49,517 nucleotides of DNA from positions 1-49,517 of the IMG/VR virus record IMGVR_UViG_3300025011_000068, one strand, 5' to 3'. Under the pieces are notes generated by a model, which was given only the letters and a program-made list of their open reading frames with translations, was not told where the DNA came from and did not search any database. Below are positions 3,590 through 48,036 of this stretch, piece by piece (within the stretch, counting starts at the first letter, position 1; each line of letters starts with the position of its first letter). Position numbers and translations under genes: made by a program. The DNA is from a virus.

Positions 3590-6064
3590 ATGCCAACAAT
3601 AGACAGCATTACCCTGACAAATTTTGGGATTCACAGAAAACGATTTTTCCAATTCGGCCCCGGATTTAACGTCATCCGCGGCGCCAACGAGGCTGGCAAG
3701 ACCACCATCCTGGAAGCGATCGCCATTGCCTTCTTTGGCAGCAGCGCCCTCCGGGGCGGCTGGGAGGATGTGGTCACGGAAGGCGAGAAGGTCGGCAGCC
3801 TGGCCATCAACCTGCGCTATGGCCAGTACACTGTTCATCGATCCAAGGCATCTGCTTCCGTTGTCAGCGACGACGGCAAGGTCGAGGTCTCTGGCCACGG
3901 CGACGTCACGGACTTTTTCCTGCGCCACTTCGGCATCGAGAAGGGCACAGAGCGAAACGTCATGATTGCCCAGCAGGGCAAGATCCAGGGGATACTGGAG
4001 TCCGGCAACGCGGACGCTACCAAGTTCATTGAGAACCTCGCCAACTTTGACCAGATCGATCAGCTGGTCGAGCGGATGAAGGCCAAGTACCCAGTCATTG
4101 ACCAACAGGCCCTGAATCAACAGATTGCAGCCCTCGAGGAAAAATTGACTGCGAAGGAAGCGGAAGAGCTGCCGGATCTGGCTGCTGACCAGAAAAGCCT
4201 GAAAGAGTGGGAGGTAAGAGTCGACGCCGCAAAGAACAAAGTCGCTGCTGCGGTCGACGTCCTGGCTCAGCAGAACACAGAGCTGGAAACTCTGCGGAGC
4301 CAAAAGCGGGAGTTCGACAGCGCGGTCAAGGCCGTAGCCGACCAGGAGCAAGCCGTAAGTGATTTGCAGGGTAGCCAGAAGAAGATAGCCGATCAGGTCA
4401 AAATTCTGGAGACGGAGATTAATTGCTCCAAGAGTCGGCTGGATGGCGCCCGGGCGTTCCTTGCCGATCTGGAGAAAAAGCAGACAGCCTACCACGATTA
4501 CCGGCGGGTTGTCGACTTCGTCGGCTGCGACGATACGTGGGGCGAAAGCCTGGAGGACCTCCACAAAGAACTGGAGGGTACAAGGAAAGCGGCAGTAGTG
4601 CTGCAGGCGGAACTAAAGGCCAGTGAGAAGAAGGTAGCTACGCTCGAGGCCTCACCAATAATAGACAAGCAAGTGGAGGCTCTACAGGCAAAGGTCGCGG
4701 ACATCTCCAAACAGAAGGCAGTGCTGAAAGCGATGACCGGAGACTCCGAGGAGGTGGCCAAGCTCAAACAAGAGATCGCTGACGTGGGTACTCAGGCGGC
4801 TGTGGCCTTATCCAAACAGATACTGGAAGAAATTTGCCCAACTTGTGGTACAGACCTCCATGAAAAAGCTGAGGCTGTCAATGACGCTATCAACGACGAG
4901 TTGGTGGCTCTTAATGACGCCAAGCAAGGGCTAGAGGCTGAATTAGAGGCTGCTTATCAAGCGCAGCGTGATGCCCGTGCGCAGCAGGAAAAGGATCTGG
5001 AGAAGGAATTCGACCGCACCCTTAAGAAGACTGAGGAGTTGATCGTTATCCTAGAGCAGGCTCGGGCGAAGGAACTTGAACAGATCAACGAGAGTATTAG
5101 TAAATTGAAGGAAGCTCTTACTGAAACAGAAGAGACGGTCAGGATACTGGAGGGCATCATCACGGTCCAGGACAAGGTCGTCGCCCTGTTGGAGACTGTT
5201 ACAGCTACTTCTCTATGGGTGAATAAGGACGTCTACCCCTGGAGCATATCTTGGGGCGCAGACGCTCCGGAGAAAACCAACCAGCAGCAGATCGACAAGG
5301 CCAACAACGACGTGGTCTACTGCACGGGCTTGGCCACCCAGTTGGAGGGGAAGGCCAAGGAGTTTCATAAATGCTGCGCGGAGTTGTCTGCGGCCGAGGT
5401 CAAGCTCACGGGCTTGCGGTCCCAGTCGGCCAAGCTCAAGGACCCATCCGAGCAAATTGAGGTGCTTGTAGTTTCAATATCCACTGGCAAGGTACAGTTG
5501 GTGGAGCTACAGACAAAGCTCAACGCCCAGATCGAGGGCGCCAACGCGGCCCGAACCAAACTCGCCCTCGACCAGCAGACCGTCAATAAACACGGCGAGG
5601 ATGTGGCCACAATCAAGGGCGACATCCAGGGCGTCAGAAACCAGATACTGAAGTCCGCGGAGAACAACGCGCTGCACCGGGCGGTCGCGGAGGCCCGCAC
5701 GACCGTAATCGAAGGCGTCTGGAACACGCTCTTGACCGCAGCCAACGAGTGCTTCTCTTCTATTCGCGGCACCGTTTCCGACATCACCCGGGAGGGCAAG
5801 GTCTTTAAAGTCAACGGCATTAAAACCGTCAGGCTGTCAGGGTCGACGTTGGATTCCCTCGGGCTGGCGATGCGGGCGGCGATCAGGGCAGTGTTCTGTC
5901 CGGCCACGGATTTTGTTTTGTTAGATGAAATTGCAGCAGGGATGGACGTTGAGAGAACCGCAGCGGCCATGGCCCAGGTAGCGTCCCTTGGAATTCCTCA
6001 AGTAATTCTGGTCACTCACGAAGAGGTCAGCGACGGATTGGCAAATAATATTATTGAAGTATAG
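3590..6064 (+). CDS. sbcC: SbcC/Rad50-like SMC-type ATPase
   Basis: 824 residues. Walker A GANEAGKTT at residues 31-39; a long coiled coil interrupted by a zinc hook CPTC (C416, C419); then C-terminal signature motif LSGS (around 748) and Walker B FVLLDE (around 775-780). This is the complete Rad50/SbcC arrangement, shorter than E. coli SbcC and closer to phage gp46 proteins. It partners the adjacent SbcD. The leader ATTAAAGGAGCAAACAG matches those of the genes at 21 and 781. Codon use around the zinc hook (about 4790-5120) is less G+C-rich than the flanks, hinting at a mosaic segment. Confidence 0.9.
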   Translation: MPTIDSITLTNFGIHRKRFFQFGPGFNVIRGANEAGKTTILEAIAIAFFGSSALRGGWEDVVTEGEKVGSLAINLRYGQYTVHRSKASASVVSDDGKVEVSGHGDVTDFFLRHFGIEKGTERNVMIAQQGKIQGILESGNADATKFIENLANFDQIDQLVERMKAKYPVIDQQALNQQIAALEEKLTAKEAEELPDLAADQKSLKEWEVRVDAAKNKVAAAVDVLAQQNTELETLRSQKREFDSAVKAVADQEQAVSDLQGSQKKIADQVKILETEINCSKSRLDGARAFLADLEKKQTAYHDYRRVVDFVGCDDTWGESLEDLHKELEGTRKAAVVLQAELKASEKKVATLEASPIIDKQVEALQAKVADISKQKAVLKAMTGDSEEVAKLKQEIADVGTQAAVALSKQILEEICPTCGTDLHEKAEAVNDAINDELVALNDAKQGLEAELEAAYQAQRDARAQQEKDLEKEFDRTLKKTEELIVILEQARAKELEQINESISKLKEALTETEETVRILEGIITVQDKVVALLETVTATSLWVNKDVYPWSISWGADAPEKTNQQQIDKANNDVVYCTGLATQLEGKAKEFHKCCAELSAAEVKLTGLRSQSAKLKDPSEQIEVLVVSISTGKVQLVELQTKLNAQIEGANAARTKLALDQQTVNKHGEDVATIKGDIQGVRNQILKSAENNALHRAVAEARTTVIEGVWNTLLTAANECFSSIRGTVSDITREGKVFKVNGIKTVRLSGSTLDSLGLAMRAAIRAVFCPATDFVLLDEIAAGMDVERTAAAMAQVASLGIPQVILVTHEEVSDGLANNIIEV

Positions 6065-6099: not shown

Positions 6100-6276
6100 A
6101 TGAAGAAGATAAATTCGTACTTTACAGAAAAACAGATAGAAGCTCTTCGAAAGCTATCTGCGGATACTGGCCTGACCGTAGCTGAGCTACTGAGAAGGGC
6201 CATAGACCATTATTTGGGGAAGGACAGTGGGATACAAAAAACCAATACACGGGATGTACTACCACCACCTATATAA
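6100..6276 (+). CDS. Ribbon-helix-helix (CopG/Arc-like) small protein
   Basis: 58 residues. The sequence SYFTEKQIEALRKL, then TGLTVAELLRRAIDHYL, is a typical RHH pattern: one strand and two helices, with G-L-T-V-A-E-L at the turn. It is probably a DNA-binding regulator. AAGGAG lies at 6082-6087, an unusually long 12 bases before ATG 6100. The last 50 bases overlap the homing-type gene at 6227 in another frame, and the tail after the RHH fold (about residue 41) looks unstructured, so the insertion may have replaced the original C-terminus. Confidence 0.6.
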   Translation: MKKINSYFTEKQIEALRKLSADTGLTVAELLRRAIDHYLGKDSGIQKTNTRDVLPPPI

Positions 6277-6721
6277 GACTTGGTGGTGTATGGTTAACAG
6301 GTGCAGAAACCCTAAATATAAGGAATATCACTTATACGGTGGTAGAGGTATAAAGGTTTGTGATGATTGGGTGAACTCGCCTTTACTTTTTATAAAATGG
6401 GCTGAGCTAAATGGAGCTGAGCCTGGGTTGCAGTTAGATAGGAAAGAGAACAACGGGGACTACGAGCCAGGTAACTGCCACTTCACCACCCCGTCTCAGA
6501 ACGCTATAAATAGAAGGAAGAAATCAAATAACAGTTCGGGCTACACTGGTGTCCATTATATGATGAGTGCTAGTTTATACATAGCGAGAATAAGTGATAA
6601 AAGTATATCTAATAAGCGGATTCTAATAGCCTGCTGCACGACATTACATGAAGCGGTTGCTGCTAGGAATAAATTCATAATTGATAATAAACTAAAACAC
6701 CCAATACAGGAGATTAAATGA
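6227..6721 (+). CDS. Putative homing endonuclease, YGGRGI domain + AP2-like domain
   Basis: 164 residues, related to the protein at 1840-2550 but lacking its N-terminal zinc motif. Readable signatures: HLYKTWWCMVNRC, YGGRGIKVCDDW, LDRKENNGDYEPGNC and a C-terminal AP2-like segment. GTG 6227 is favoured by GGGGAAGGA upstream; ATG 6254 is a weaker alternative. The DNA is clearly A+T-richer than the ligase gene after it. The stop overlaps the ligase start as ATGA, and the final codons encode IQEIK through CAGGAGATTAAA, providing the ligase ribosome-binding site. Confidence 0.6.
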   Translation: MGYKKPIHGMYYHHLYKTWWCMVNRCRNPKYKEYHLYGGRGIKVCDDWVNSPLLFIKWAELNGAEPGLQLDRKENNGDYEPGNCHFTTPSQNAINRRKKSNNSSGYTGVHYMMSASLYIARISDKSISNKRILIACCTTLHEAVAARNKFIIDNKLKHPIQEIK

Positions 6722-8111: not shown

Positions 8112-8336
8112 ATGAGCGGCAGCACTGAATGCCAGTGCCCGTACTGCGGAGGGGTTGCCTTGTGCAGCCCTTCCAAGGGCATCTGGTGCGACAAATGTAA
8201 AAACGGCTTCTGGGAGCAGGAGCGAAACGTTATTCAAAGATGGGAGAGAACAAATGGAAACAGTACCTTGGCAGAAAATACTGGACAAGTGGAACGCCTA
8301 CCAGCTGGCCGCAAACAAGACCGCAGTTTACCCTAA
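8112..8336 (+). CDS. Lar-like zinc-ribbon small protein
   Basis: 74 residues with CPYCGG (C10, C13), then C26, then CDKC (C34, C37)-like spacing, followed by a helix with VIQRWER. This resembles the Lar/restriction-alleviation family (CPFCGG, then CxxC, then an A-x-x-x-W-N-x-R helix), small proteins that modulate host type I restriction. The end overlaps the MazG-like gene by 83 bases in another frame, so the last 25 residues are probably non-conserved. Start ATG 8112 follows AGAGGTAGGT, two bases after the ligase stop. Confidence 0.55.
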   Translation: MSGSTECQCPYCGGVALCSPSKGIWCDKCKNGFWEQERNVIQRWERTNGNSTLAENTGQVERLPAGRKQDRSLP

Positions 8337-9276: not shown

Positions 9277-9413
9277 ACCATGTTTGGAGAATACTAGTAC
9301 AGCCGACCTAACTCCACTTTGGCTAGACCGTAGGTACTTTTACTTTAGATCCTGAAGACTATGAGGAGGATTCGGCCGGCAACAGAAGTCACCTCACCTC
9401 ACCTCACCTCACC
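9277..9413. other. Convergent junction between early and late gene blocks
   Basis: Plus-strand genes end at 9276 and minus-strand genes end at 9414. The 137 bases between hold no clear terminator hairpin. They contain an 18-base duplicate of part of the gene at 9025 (9348-9365) and most of a TCACC pentamer array. No gene is supported here. Confidence 0.5.
9348..9365 (+). repeat. 18-bp direct repeat copy of 9079-9096
   Basis: GATCCTGAAGACTATGAG occurs at 9079-9096 inside the 83-residue gene and again here outside any convincing gene. In the same reading the second copy continues as DPEDYEEDSAG before running into the pentamer array, so it may be a scrap of a duplicated gene left by deletion. 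Confidence 0.7.
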
Positions 9414-9418
9414 TCACC
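9389..9418. repeat. TCACC pentamer array, six copies
   Basis: Six head-to-tail copies of TCACC. The array overlaps the stop codon of the minus-strand gene ending at 9414. It is a slippage-prone microsatellite; copy number could vary between isolates. No regulatory role can be shown. Confidence 0.85.
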
Positions 9419-9617
9419 CCATAACCTCAAAACGAATAGCGTGCCGCTCGCACGCCTCTTTGGCCTTGCACAGCCCGGTCCAGATCTCTGCAAACTCGGG
9501 ATCGTCCTTAATGACCATCGCGACCTTGCCCCAGACGCCAAACAAGGGATATGCCGCAACGCAAGGTTCGGTACATCCTCGACCGCACTTTAGTGGATCA
9601 GCAGCTACTCTATGCAT
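9414..9617 (-). CDS. Cys-rich small protein, 67 aa
   Basis: ATG 9617 is preceded by GAGGGGCG and overlaps the upstream gene stop by 13 bases. Cysteines are spaced CGRGCTEPC (C-x3-C-x3-C) near residue 11, with two more near residues 50 and 56. It could bind metal or form disulfides. No family recognised. It is the last gene of the late minus-strand operon and its stop lies in the TCACC array. A real gene is supported by the overlap, ribosome-binding site and cysteine pattern rather than by homology. Confidence 0.45.
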   Translation of the reverse strand: MHRVAADPLKCGRGCTEPCVAAYPLFGVWGKVAMVIKDDPEFAEIWTGLCKAKEACERHAIRFEVMG

Positions 9618-9814
9618 CGTCGCCCCTCTATGTAGACAGCACTCTCTGGACAGAACTGGATAACAAGGCCTATCCTGTAACCAAGCTCAGCATCCTTCAG
9701 TGCCCAGACCGATAACGGCAGGTTGCCGTCGTATTTCGATCGGAAACCTTTCAGCAGGATTTCGCACATTCCACAATCTTGGCACTCTTGTTTGTCGGTG
9801 GTTAGGAAGTGCAT
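9605..9814 (-). CDS. Ferredoxin-like small protein (CxxCxxC ... CP)
   Basis: 69 residues from ATG 9814, two bases after the endolysin stop (TGATTATG), chosen over the upstream ATG at 9871 that would sit inside the endolysin. CQDCGMC (C11, C14, C17) is followed 38 residues later by CPESAVYIE (C55), like the two parts of a [4Fe-4S] ferredoxin signature with an insertion between the third and fourth cysteines; a fifth Cys is at 67. It could bind an Fe-S cluster or zinc. Being coupled to the endolysin gene is odd for a redox protein. Confidence 0.5.
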   Translation of the reverse strand: MHFLTTDKQECQDCGMCEILLKGFRSKYDGNLPLSVWALKDAELGYRIGLVIQFCPESAVYIEGRRCIE

Positions 9815-9816
9815 AA

Positions 9817-10302
9817 TCAGTCCGTATCGTCGGCGCCGTAACGCAAGTTCTGGGCAATCCGCTTCACCCATCCCCGGGCGTTCGGCAGAAAGTTCTTGCA
9901 GTCGGCCATGAAATCTAGGCGCTCGGCCAGGATCAACATCACCAGATCAGAGTCGGAAGTGTCATCGATCTTTGCTCGAGTAATGGGTCCGACAATGCCG
10001 TCATCTTTCAGCCCAAGCGCCTGCTGTAGCTGCTTGATCGCTGTCTTCGGCCCGGAGTTCACCCCGAAGTCGAAGAGCTGGAAGGCAAGCCCGCGAGGAA
10101 ATCTGTCGAGGTTCATCGGAATAATGTAATCGGCAATGTAGATCGCGCCGGCCTGGTCAATTGTGAGATTTTTGATATTGAGATGGGGGTATGATCGCTG
10201 GCTGACACCCCACTTGGTTGGTCCGCCGACCGGATCGTCCCAGTATCCGCCTTCATGGCCCAGGCATCGACGCAGCAATTCTCGAACCTTATCGGATGTC
10301 AT
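9817..10302 (-). CDS. Endolysin, GH108-type N-acetylmuramidase with PG-binding domain
   Basis: 161 residues. An N-terminal HEGGYWDDPVGGPTKWGVS (E17 the likely catalytic Glu) is the hallmark of the glycosyl hydrolase 108 / secretion-activator family. The C-terminal half contains the LQQALGLKDDGIVGPIT segment of the type 3 peptidoglycan-binding domain. It should cleave the glycan strand of host peptidoglycan at lysis. There is no signal peptide, so it would depend on the upstream holin-like protein. The start overlaps the preceding stop as ATGA. Confidence 0.9.
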   Translation of the reverse strand: MTSDKVRELLRRCLGHEGGYWDDPVGGPTKWGVSQRSYPHLNIKNLTIDQAGAIYIADYIIPMNLDRFPRGLAFQLFDFGVNSGPKTAIKQLQQALGLKDDGIVGPITRAKIDDTSDSDLVMLILAERLDFMADCKNFLPNARGWVKRIAQNLRYGADDTD

Positions 10303-10718
10303 TGATTTCTCCCCTCAAGGTGTTCAATTCTTTTGGCATTACTCTCTACGTCCTTTGATGTCTGCCTGATTGATAATTCAAAAGTGTTTTTCAACACTTC
10401 TGTGCTTGTGGTCATTCGGTTCACACTGGCAGTGACGCTGGCAGACGAGGCTTTTATTTCCGCCACGCTTTCCCTAATTTCTGACTTAAACAGTGCGAGC
10501 AGTGTGAAAAGAGCACCGAGAGTTATAGCCACAACCAACACCATTACTGCAATAGCACCGACAACTTTGTTTTTGAAACTGAGTAACGGCGGGATCTCTC
10601 TGAGCAATTTTTCACTTGCCTCCGTATCTGCTTTGTGCTTTTCTTCAAGTCTGATAAAGTTTGGACAGTCGTTACATGCTCTCCTGTCAGTCTCGCCGTG
10701 TCTGCGGTCATCGGTCAT
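10299..10718 (-). CDS. Membrane-anchored coiled-coil protein, probable lysis accessory
   Basis: 139 residues. The N-terminal soluble part is charged and contains CNDC; one strong TM helix lies at about residues 51-75; the C-terminal half is a Ser/Thr/Glu-rich coiled coil (EIKASSASVTASVNRM onward). One-TM coiled-coil proteins beside holins and endolysins often act in lysis (XhlA-like or spanin-like), so that role is inferred. No lipobox is seen. The stop overlaps the endolysin start. Confidence 0.55.
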   Translation of the reverse strand: MTDDRRHGETDRRACNDCPNFIRLEEKHKADTEASEKLLREIPPLLSFKNKVVGAIAVMVLVVAITLGALFTLLALFKSEIRESVAEIKASSASVTASVNRMTTSTEVLKNTFELSIRQTSKDVESNAKRIEHLEGRNQ

Positions 10719-10723
10719 TTATC

Positions 10724-11206
10724 TCATCCTTTAGAAAATACTTTCTCAATAAGAGGCTGAAGATTAAGGACCGCACGCTCACCAAAAAGAAAACCAAGCA
10801 CAAGCACATTGATTATGATCATAGCCAGACCTTGCTCTTGGCTAAACTCGTTACTTGAAAAGATCCACTTATAGTCGAGCCACAATGTAGCAAAACCCCA
10901 AGCCGGACGTTGTACCCCACGTAAAAAAACAATAGGACGGCCAATCCAGCCAAGAGCATTCAAGTCAGAAGCAGTACCCTCTTGCTCGGCAATTCGCTTG
11001 TCAATTTGCGCAGCTGCTTCGGATAACATTTTGTCAGTCTCTAACTGTTTTGCTGCAAGAAGTTCTGTCATTTTCAGATTAACTTCTGCTTTTTGCAAAG
11101 GAGTCAGATCAGGGGGGAGGTAAGACAACACTGTTTCTTTTATCTCTTTGAACAGTCCGCCGCCTACAAAGTTAGCTACTGCCGAAAGTATTTTTCCTGC
11201 GCTCAT
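10724..11206 (-). CDS. Holin-like protein (3TM/GTA-holin type)
   Basis: 160 residues from ATG 11206, preferred over ATG 11212 because AAAGGAGG would touch the first ATG. An amphipathic N-terminus and a helical linker precede a GRPIVFLRGVQRPAWGF segment and two hydrophobic stretches (about 108-126 and 132-150), as in the three-TM phage holins related to gene-transfer-agent holins. It would permeabilise the inner membrane for the endolysin. Its place directly before the lysis genes supports this; family membership is inferred. Confidence 0.6.
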   Translation of the reverse strand: MSAGKILSAVANFVGGGLFKEIKETVLSYLPPDLTPLQKAEVNLKMTELLAAKQLETDKMLSEAAAQIDKRIAEQEGTASDLNALGWIGRPIVFLRGVQRPAWGFATLWLDYKWIFSSNEFSQEQGLAMIIINVLVLGFLFGERAVLNLQPLIEKVFSKG

Positions 11207-11218
11207 CAACATCCTCCT

Positions 11219-47559: not shown

Positions 47560-47587
47560 TTAATTTGGCCCTACCCGGGCTTCTACA
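47523..47587. repeat. 28-29-bp tandem repeat, about 2.3 copies
   Basis: Unit CTTCTACAATTAATTNGGnC followed by TCTACCCGGG. Copies at 47523-47550 and 47551-47579 plus a partial one to 47587. The last copies reach into the 3' end of the minus-strand gene, so its final residues EARVGPN are encoded in the repeat. Confidence 0.8.
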
Positions 47588-48036
47588 CTGCCCTGGCCGT
47601 CGTAGCACAGCATCTCATAGTAGCCGTTGCCGTTGAGCAGTTCGCCCATTGCCGACTTCAACGGCTTGTCCGCGGTCTCTTCCTTATATGCCCTCATCGT
47701 CTCGGTCAATACGTTGTTGATGGCTGAGATGCATTGTCGCATTTCTCGAAAGATCGGGTTTATCCCTTTTCCGTGGAACAGCTTCCGATGCTGCGTCTCG
47801 CCCATCTTTAATAGCAGTAATTGTTCAAAAAGTGGTCGGAGCAGAAGGTCCAACCTGAGCCTAGTTTCCGGCGCGTCGTCGAGCTTTTTAAAGGTGTCGC
47901 TGACGGTACGATCGAGTTGGAATAAAAATTGTTCCTTGATGTGACAGGGCGCCCCAGGCATAGGCCCATTGGGGCACTCTTCTGCTATCGGACACTGTTC
48001 CGGATCACACTCAATGTGTTTTGTCAACATATTCAT
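47560..48036 (-). CDS. Cys-rich protein, 158 aa; small terminase candidate
   Basis: N-terminal Cys cluster (HIECDPEQCPIAEECPNGPMPGAPCHIKEQ; spacings C-x4-C-x5-C-x9-C) suggesting a metal site, then helical regions (LRLDLLLRPLFEQLLLLKMGETQHRKL and MRQCISAINNVLTETMRAYKEE). Starts at ATG 48036 or 48030. It is the only gene upstream of terminase on the same strand outside the cassette, which raises a small-terminase role, but no TerS motif is clear. There is no Shine-Dalgarno; see the promoter entry. Confidence 0.55.
   Translation of the reverse strand: MNMLTKHIECDPEQCPIAEECPNGPMPGAPCHIKEQFLFQLDRTVSDTFKKLDDAPETRLRLDLLLRPLFEQLLLLKMGETQHRKLFHGKGINPIFREMRQCISAINNVLTETMRAYKEETADKPLKSAMGELLNGNGYYEMLCYDGQGSVEARVGPN

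Follow-up and report, generated by a model that had tools for sequence, protein, structure and literature searches.

Does the short gene directly behind the endolysin gene of this phage encode a ferredoxin, and what would such a protein do at the end of a lysis cassette? The window, that is, the whole stretch of DNA that we analysed, comprises the 49,517 bases of a phage record, in which a minus-strand lysis block running from 11212 down to 9414 encodes, in order, a hydrophobic protein, a putative spanin-like protein, an endolysin and two small proteins, P0001 and P0002 (Table 1). The P0001 open reading frame (ORF) begins with an ATG at 9814 and ends with a TAG at 9607-9605; its product carries the motif C11-x2-C14-x2-C17, followed by 37 residues and then by C55-P56-E-S-A-V-Y-I-E. 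The endolysin stop codon, TGA, occupies 9819-9817, leaving exactly two bases (TT) before the P0001 ATG. P0002 contains the sequence CGRGCTEPC. Cysteines make up five of the 69 residues of P0001 and five of the 67 of P0002, versus 173 of 15003 (1.15%) over the 48 likely genes of the window. A preliminary description of the locus had given the coordinates, the motif, the two-base gap after the endolysin stop and the cysteine-rich neighbour, all of which are correct. The position of a ferredoxin-like gene right behind a phage endolysin is unusual.

Table 1 Features of the lysis block and their coordinates in the window
Feature	Coordinates	Strand	Remarks
P0001, 69-aa divergent single-cluster [4Fe-4S] ferredoxin-like protein	9605..9814	-	Predicted ligands C11, C14, C17, C55
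P0002, 67-aa Cys-rich protein, CX3CX3C and CX5C	9414..9617	-	13-base overlap with the P0001 gene
GH108 endolysin, 161 aa	9817..10302	-	Pfam E 3.2e-16
139-aa protein, one hydrophobic segment	10299..10718	-	Putative; weak Rz-like spanin matches, PHROGs E 0.008-0.053
162-aa protein, hydrophobic segments	10724..11212	-	Putative; holin-like by position and look only
Divergent lysis island	9308..11194	.	Defined by DNA identity to G001

The first protein of the block, encoded at 10724-11212, had no useful family match in Pfam or PHROGs. Elsewhere in the window, a 74-aa ORF on the plus strand at 8112-8336 has six cysteines (CPYCGG ... CDKCKNG), looks zinc-ribbon-like and is the most cysteine-rich of the 48 likely genes counted; a related ORF is present in L001, a locus described below. 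A 158-aa protein encoded on the minus strand at 47560-48036 opens with a cysteine cluster (CDPEQCPIAEEC...C) and has no match in Pfam. Two similar proteins of the replication gene block, encoded on the plus strand at 1819-2550 and 6227-6721 (GGRGIKVWDKW and GGRGIKVCDDW), which we take to be HNH-type, likewise have no Pfam match.

Scans of IMG/VR viral contigs for P0001 homologues yielded only two near-identical records of the same phage group (L001 and L002), with 62% identity to P0001. L001 lies in the contig G001, of which a further contig, G002, is not independent; conservation of P0001 is thus judged from two distinct alleles from close relatives, those of the window and of L001 (P0004). 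In L001 the order endolysin, ferredoxin-like gene, P0002 is the same as in the window. The two P0001 alleles are identical at 43 of 69 positions. Over residues 1-26 they differ by 12 synonymous changes and one non-synonymous change; over residues 27-63, where synonymous sites are saturated, 18 of 37 residues are identical. The endolysins of the window and G001 share 131 of 158 residues (dN/dS 0.12), and P0002 is identical in L001 at all 67 positions despite 20 synonymous differences. Since L001 keeps the order behind the endolysin, with many synonymous and few non-synonymous changes, we conclude that P0001 and P0002 are real coding genes. The complete conservation of P0002 between otherwise diverged lysis blocks is the pair's strongest sign of function.

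The preliminary description had made its proposed metal site depend on conservation of the cysteines. In the two-allele alignment, both proteins keep the four ligand cysteines, the proline of the CP pair, D7, G15 and I62-E63, so the motif cysteines are retained at 62% identity, whereas the extra cysteines, C67 in the window and C28 in L001, are not shared. Genome contigs searched with P0001 gave no match; among phage records, neither P0001 (E at least 7) nor P0002 (E at least 0.4) had a real match, and P0004 had none at all; and plasmids searched with P0004 gave partial matches only (E at least 0.1). A Pelobacter ferredoxin used as query against viral contigs found no match. Among 14 loci, including the window's own stretch (L004), an ORF of the form CxxCxxC-x25-50-CP was found only as this gene and its relatives. 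One further candidate, L003, was rejected as a homologue of P0001, being a 12-residue chance match within another protein.

The window and G001 are 94-97% identical over most of their length, and the flanks of the lysis island are 96-97% identical. The island itself shows 79% DNA identity over 9308-10269 and no match over 10270-11194. Against the identity elsewhere, this divergence is a sign of module exchange: the lysis block appears to have been swapped for a diverged version, with the order endolysin, ferredoxin-like gene, P0002 kept. We had considered that G001, which gave no terminase match, might be an unrelated phage, and rejected this on the 94-97% identity; the G001 record seems to end before the terminase. 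The terminase of the window had no match in genome contigs or phage records. At 9389-9418, starting at the P0002 stop, a 5-base unit (GGTGA, read on the minus strand) is repeated perfectly six times; L001 has about two copies, and the repeat number therefore varies between close phages.

A search with the endolysin found eight loci. Homologues of P0001 beside endolysins, which the preliminary description had suggested looking for, are present at two of the eight, in the same records as L001 and L002, and absent from the other six (L009-L014), where no CxxCxxC-x25-50-CP ORF was found in the flanks examined. L009 and L010 carry the closest endolysin relatives outside the phage group (68-69% identical to that of the window). 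Because only two of the eight endolysin loci carry the pair, we conclude that P0001 is cargo of this phage group and not a general lysis component. In another phage, L011 has at 3689-3943 a different 84-aa protein with seven cysteines and no ferredoxin motif, encoded downstream of an endolysin that is 54% identical.

By eye, no good Shine-Dalgarno sequence is visible upstream of the P0001 ATG, whereas AGAGGGG precedes the P0002 ATG, which makes reinitiation behind the endolysin a reasonable possibility for P0001. Translational coupling of the two genes, as the preliminary description proposed, is plausible from the sequence, and L001 has the same endolysin/ferredoxin-like junction as the window. 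P0002, whose gene overlaps that of P0001, is probably co-produced with it.

We compared the P0001 alleles with 15 single-cluster ferredoxins: 13 from plasmids and one from Bacillus phage SP-15, all annotated as such, together with that of Pyrococcus furiosus. An unannotated phage match, L018, was left out of this set. The interval between the third and fourth cysteines spans 34-43 residues in these references and is exactly 37, the mode, in nine of the 15; it is 37 in both alleles. The preliminary description had read the motif as split by a 37-residue insertion, a model that we reject because 37 is the commonest native spacing of single-cluster [4Fe-4S] ferredoxins. On the 15-ferredoxin profile the window protein scores 16.1 bits and the L001 protein 24.4 bits, and the two rank first and second of 1153 six-frame ORFs (frames between stops, 40 aa or longer, taken from the window and from 40,000 bases of G001), the next best scoring 5.7 bits. 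A two-allele profile searched against the PDB has as its top match the P. furiosus ferredoxin (E 0.0057), with the four cysteines in register, and the next matches (E 0.24, 1.5 and 2.8) are all ferredoxins. With the L001 protein alone there are three PDB matches, all ferredoxins (E 0.029-0.89); with the window protein alone there are eight entries, at E 0.056 and worse, one of which is a ferredoxin and two of which are other Fe-S proteins. Alignment to ferredoxins with hhalign gives a probability of 95.6% over 64 columns, and a blind scan of G001 and G002 with Fer4_13 picks out only this ORF in each, at 8.4 bits. The description of P0001 as ferredoxin-like is therefore borne out by profiles, PDB matches and hhalign as well as by its four conserved cysteines.

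Curated models tell against ordinary membership. The L001 protein falls under the Pfam cut-offs, given in brackets, for Fer4_13 (12.2 bits; 24.5), Fer4_15 (11.4; 22.4) and Fer4 (14.9; 21.1); the window protein has no Pfam match at E of 1 or below, and a Fer4_13 scan of the window did not find P0001. Four of the references, checked in Pfam, exceed the Fer4_13 and Fer4_15 cut-offs, and the references, each scored on a profile built from the rest, reach 46-73 bits, versus 16-24 for the alleles. An AlphaFold model of P0001 (three rows) has a mean pLDDT of 37.7. With scores below the cut-offs, references at 46-73 bits and no usable model, P0001 is ferredoxin-like and, by curated Pfam score, lies outside both Fer4_13 and Fer4_15. 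Identity as a zinc finger or a two-cluster ferredoxin was also considered and rejected, no family match being above cut-off.

Single-cluster ferredoxins hold one low-potential cubane cluster and transfer one electron at a time. We consider it likely, with a probability of roughly two in three, that P0001 is a divergent single-cluster [4Fe-4S] phage ferredoxin whose gene is cargo at the 3′ end of the lysis cassette and which probably acts as an electron carrier; judged by its sequence, it looks and probably works like one. Its four cysteines (CxxCxxC...CP) would ligate a single cubane cluster within the small beta-alpha-beta fold typical of ferredoxins. It would be translated late, by reinitiation behind the endolysin, and would pass low-potential electrons on to a redox enzyme of the host (or to an unknown one), with the overlapping and extremely conserved P0002 made alongside as a possible partner. 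For P0002 itself, searches that included Pfam, PHROGs and phage records found nothing useful and no detectable ferredoxin or metal-site homology, and a single-sequence AlphaFold model is all-helical and of low confidence (mean pLDDT 59.2). Of the proposed redox or metal-binding pair of the preliminary description, P0001 is ferredoxin-like by sequence and P0002 showed no such similarity; P0002 may be a partner of P0001.

A rather unlikely alternative is that P0001 derives from a ferredoxin and no longer carries electrons, its cysteines binding zinc or a structural cluster in a binding or regulatory factor that acts on lysis proteins or host enzymes. Its strong divergence from true ferredoxins, its location in a lysis operon and the loss of the P-[DE]-V-F stretch that normally follows the third cysteine would all fit, as would the lack of a recognised redox partner gene among the 28 other window proteins scanned against Pfam (30 of the 48 likely genes were scanned); the families matched were thymidylate-synthase-like, SbcCD-like, ligase OB-like, MazG, endolysin, portal, S49 peptidase and tail proteins, besides weak matches. 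However, the exact ligand spacing, the CGxC and the CPxxAIxIE-type features are kept, as cluster binding and electron transfer would preserve them. The missing stretch and the lack of a recognised partner gene also count against the main reading.

That a small cysteine-rich phage protein of unrelated fold happens to mimic a ferredoxin is distinctly unlikely. All curated family scores are below threshold and no fold is confidently predicted, as such a coincidence would have it. However, when each allele was shuffled 3000 times with all cysteines and the CP kept fixed, only 2/3000 shuffles (window) and 0/3000 (L001) scored as well on the 15-sequence profile, and 0/3000 did so for either allele on a profile of 12 references. 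Together with the hhalign result, this indicates that the similarity to single-cluster ferredoxins extends beyond the placement of cysteines; moreover, among the cysteines only those of the motif are conserved.

We regard as very improbable the idea that P0001 and P0002 form a phage redox device in the lysis cassette that halts envelope synthesis or times lysis by the redox state of the host. Such a device would be made with the endolysin and would divert or block electrons bound for a host enzyme that depends on ferredoxin, such as one of isoprenoid/undecaprenyl synthesis, or would sense redox state. The response to metal, oxygen or envelope stress raised in the preliminary description found no support in this analysis. 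Least probable of all is that P0001 is a lysis helper which, late in infection, starves envelope synthesis by acting as a decoy for a host enzyme that is an Fe-S protein or depends on ferredoxin or flavodoxin. In favour of this, its gene lies directly behind the endolysin, in a lysis island exchanged as a block, and PMC8835842 reports that the 63-aa lysis protein YdfD of the Qin prophage inhibits IspG, but YdfD is a functional analogy only, and L009 and L010 lack the gene, which is therefore not needed for lysis in general.

Among known proteins, the Fer4_13 (PF13370) and Fer4_15 (PF13459) ferredoxins, such as that of P. furiosus (PDB 2z8q), resemble our divergent candidate ferredoxin in length, in the register of the four cysteines, in the C3-C4 spacing and in the CP-x-x-A-I-x-I-E ending. 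They differ in that P0001 scores under the curated cut-offs, lacks P-[DE]-V-F after C3 and lies in a phage lysis cassette. The ferredoxin of Bacillus phage SP-15 (SP15_183, AMM44981.1) is also a phage-encoded single-cluster protein; unlike P0001, it exceeds the Fer4_13 cut-off (53.5 bits) and lies among hypothetical genes, with no lysis gene annotated within 3 kb on either side. The Prochlorococcus phage ferredoxin is reportedly a plant-type [2Fe-2S] protein, unlike P0001. The title of the study on it (Campbell 2020, cited in PMC9973337) names electron transfer to sulfite reductases. Viruses of Lake Baikal Nitrospirota encode a 4Fe-S ferredoxin that, according to PMC7678222, is read as an auxiliary metabolic gene and is 86% identical to the host ferredoxin, whereas for P0001 our searches gave no close cellular relative. 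A late-made P0001 could supply a host enzyme by analogy with that reading (PMC7678222). Phage Fe-S assembly genes are the subject of PMC5332604; PMC7556043, which describes a phage inserted in the ferredoxin gene of a host, was set aside as not relevant.

Searches of the literature turned up no ferredoxin in a phage lysis cassette. Ferredoxins in phages are already known; what sets this one apart is the divergent sequence, the position in the lysis cassette and the invariant neighbour. Should P0001 prove to be a true ferredoxin, the unannotated genes behind phage endolysins may include small divergent Fe-S carriers that go unnoticed, and the pair would offer a small biochemical test of phage electron use at the end of infection. 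Most phage ferredoxins reported to date have been interpreted as aids to metabolism, and the ones compared here are either similar to host proteins or reach the scores of ordinary ferredoxins. P0001 has diverged strongly, is missed by the curated models that we tried, and is joined to a lysis gene together with a strictly conserved companion.
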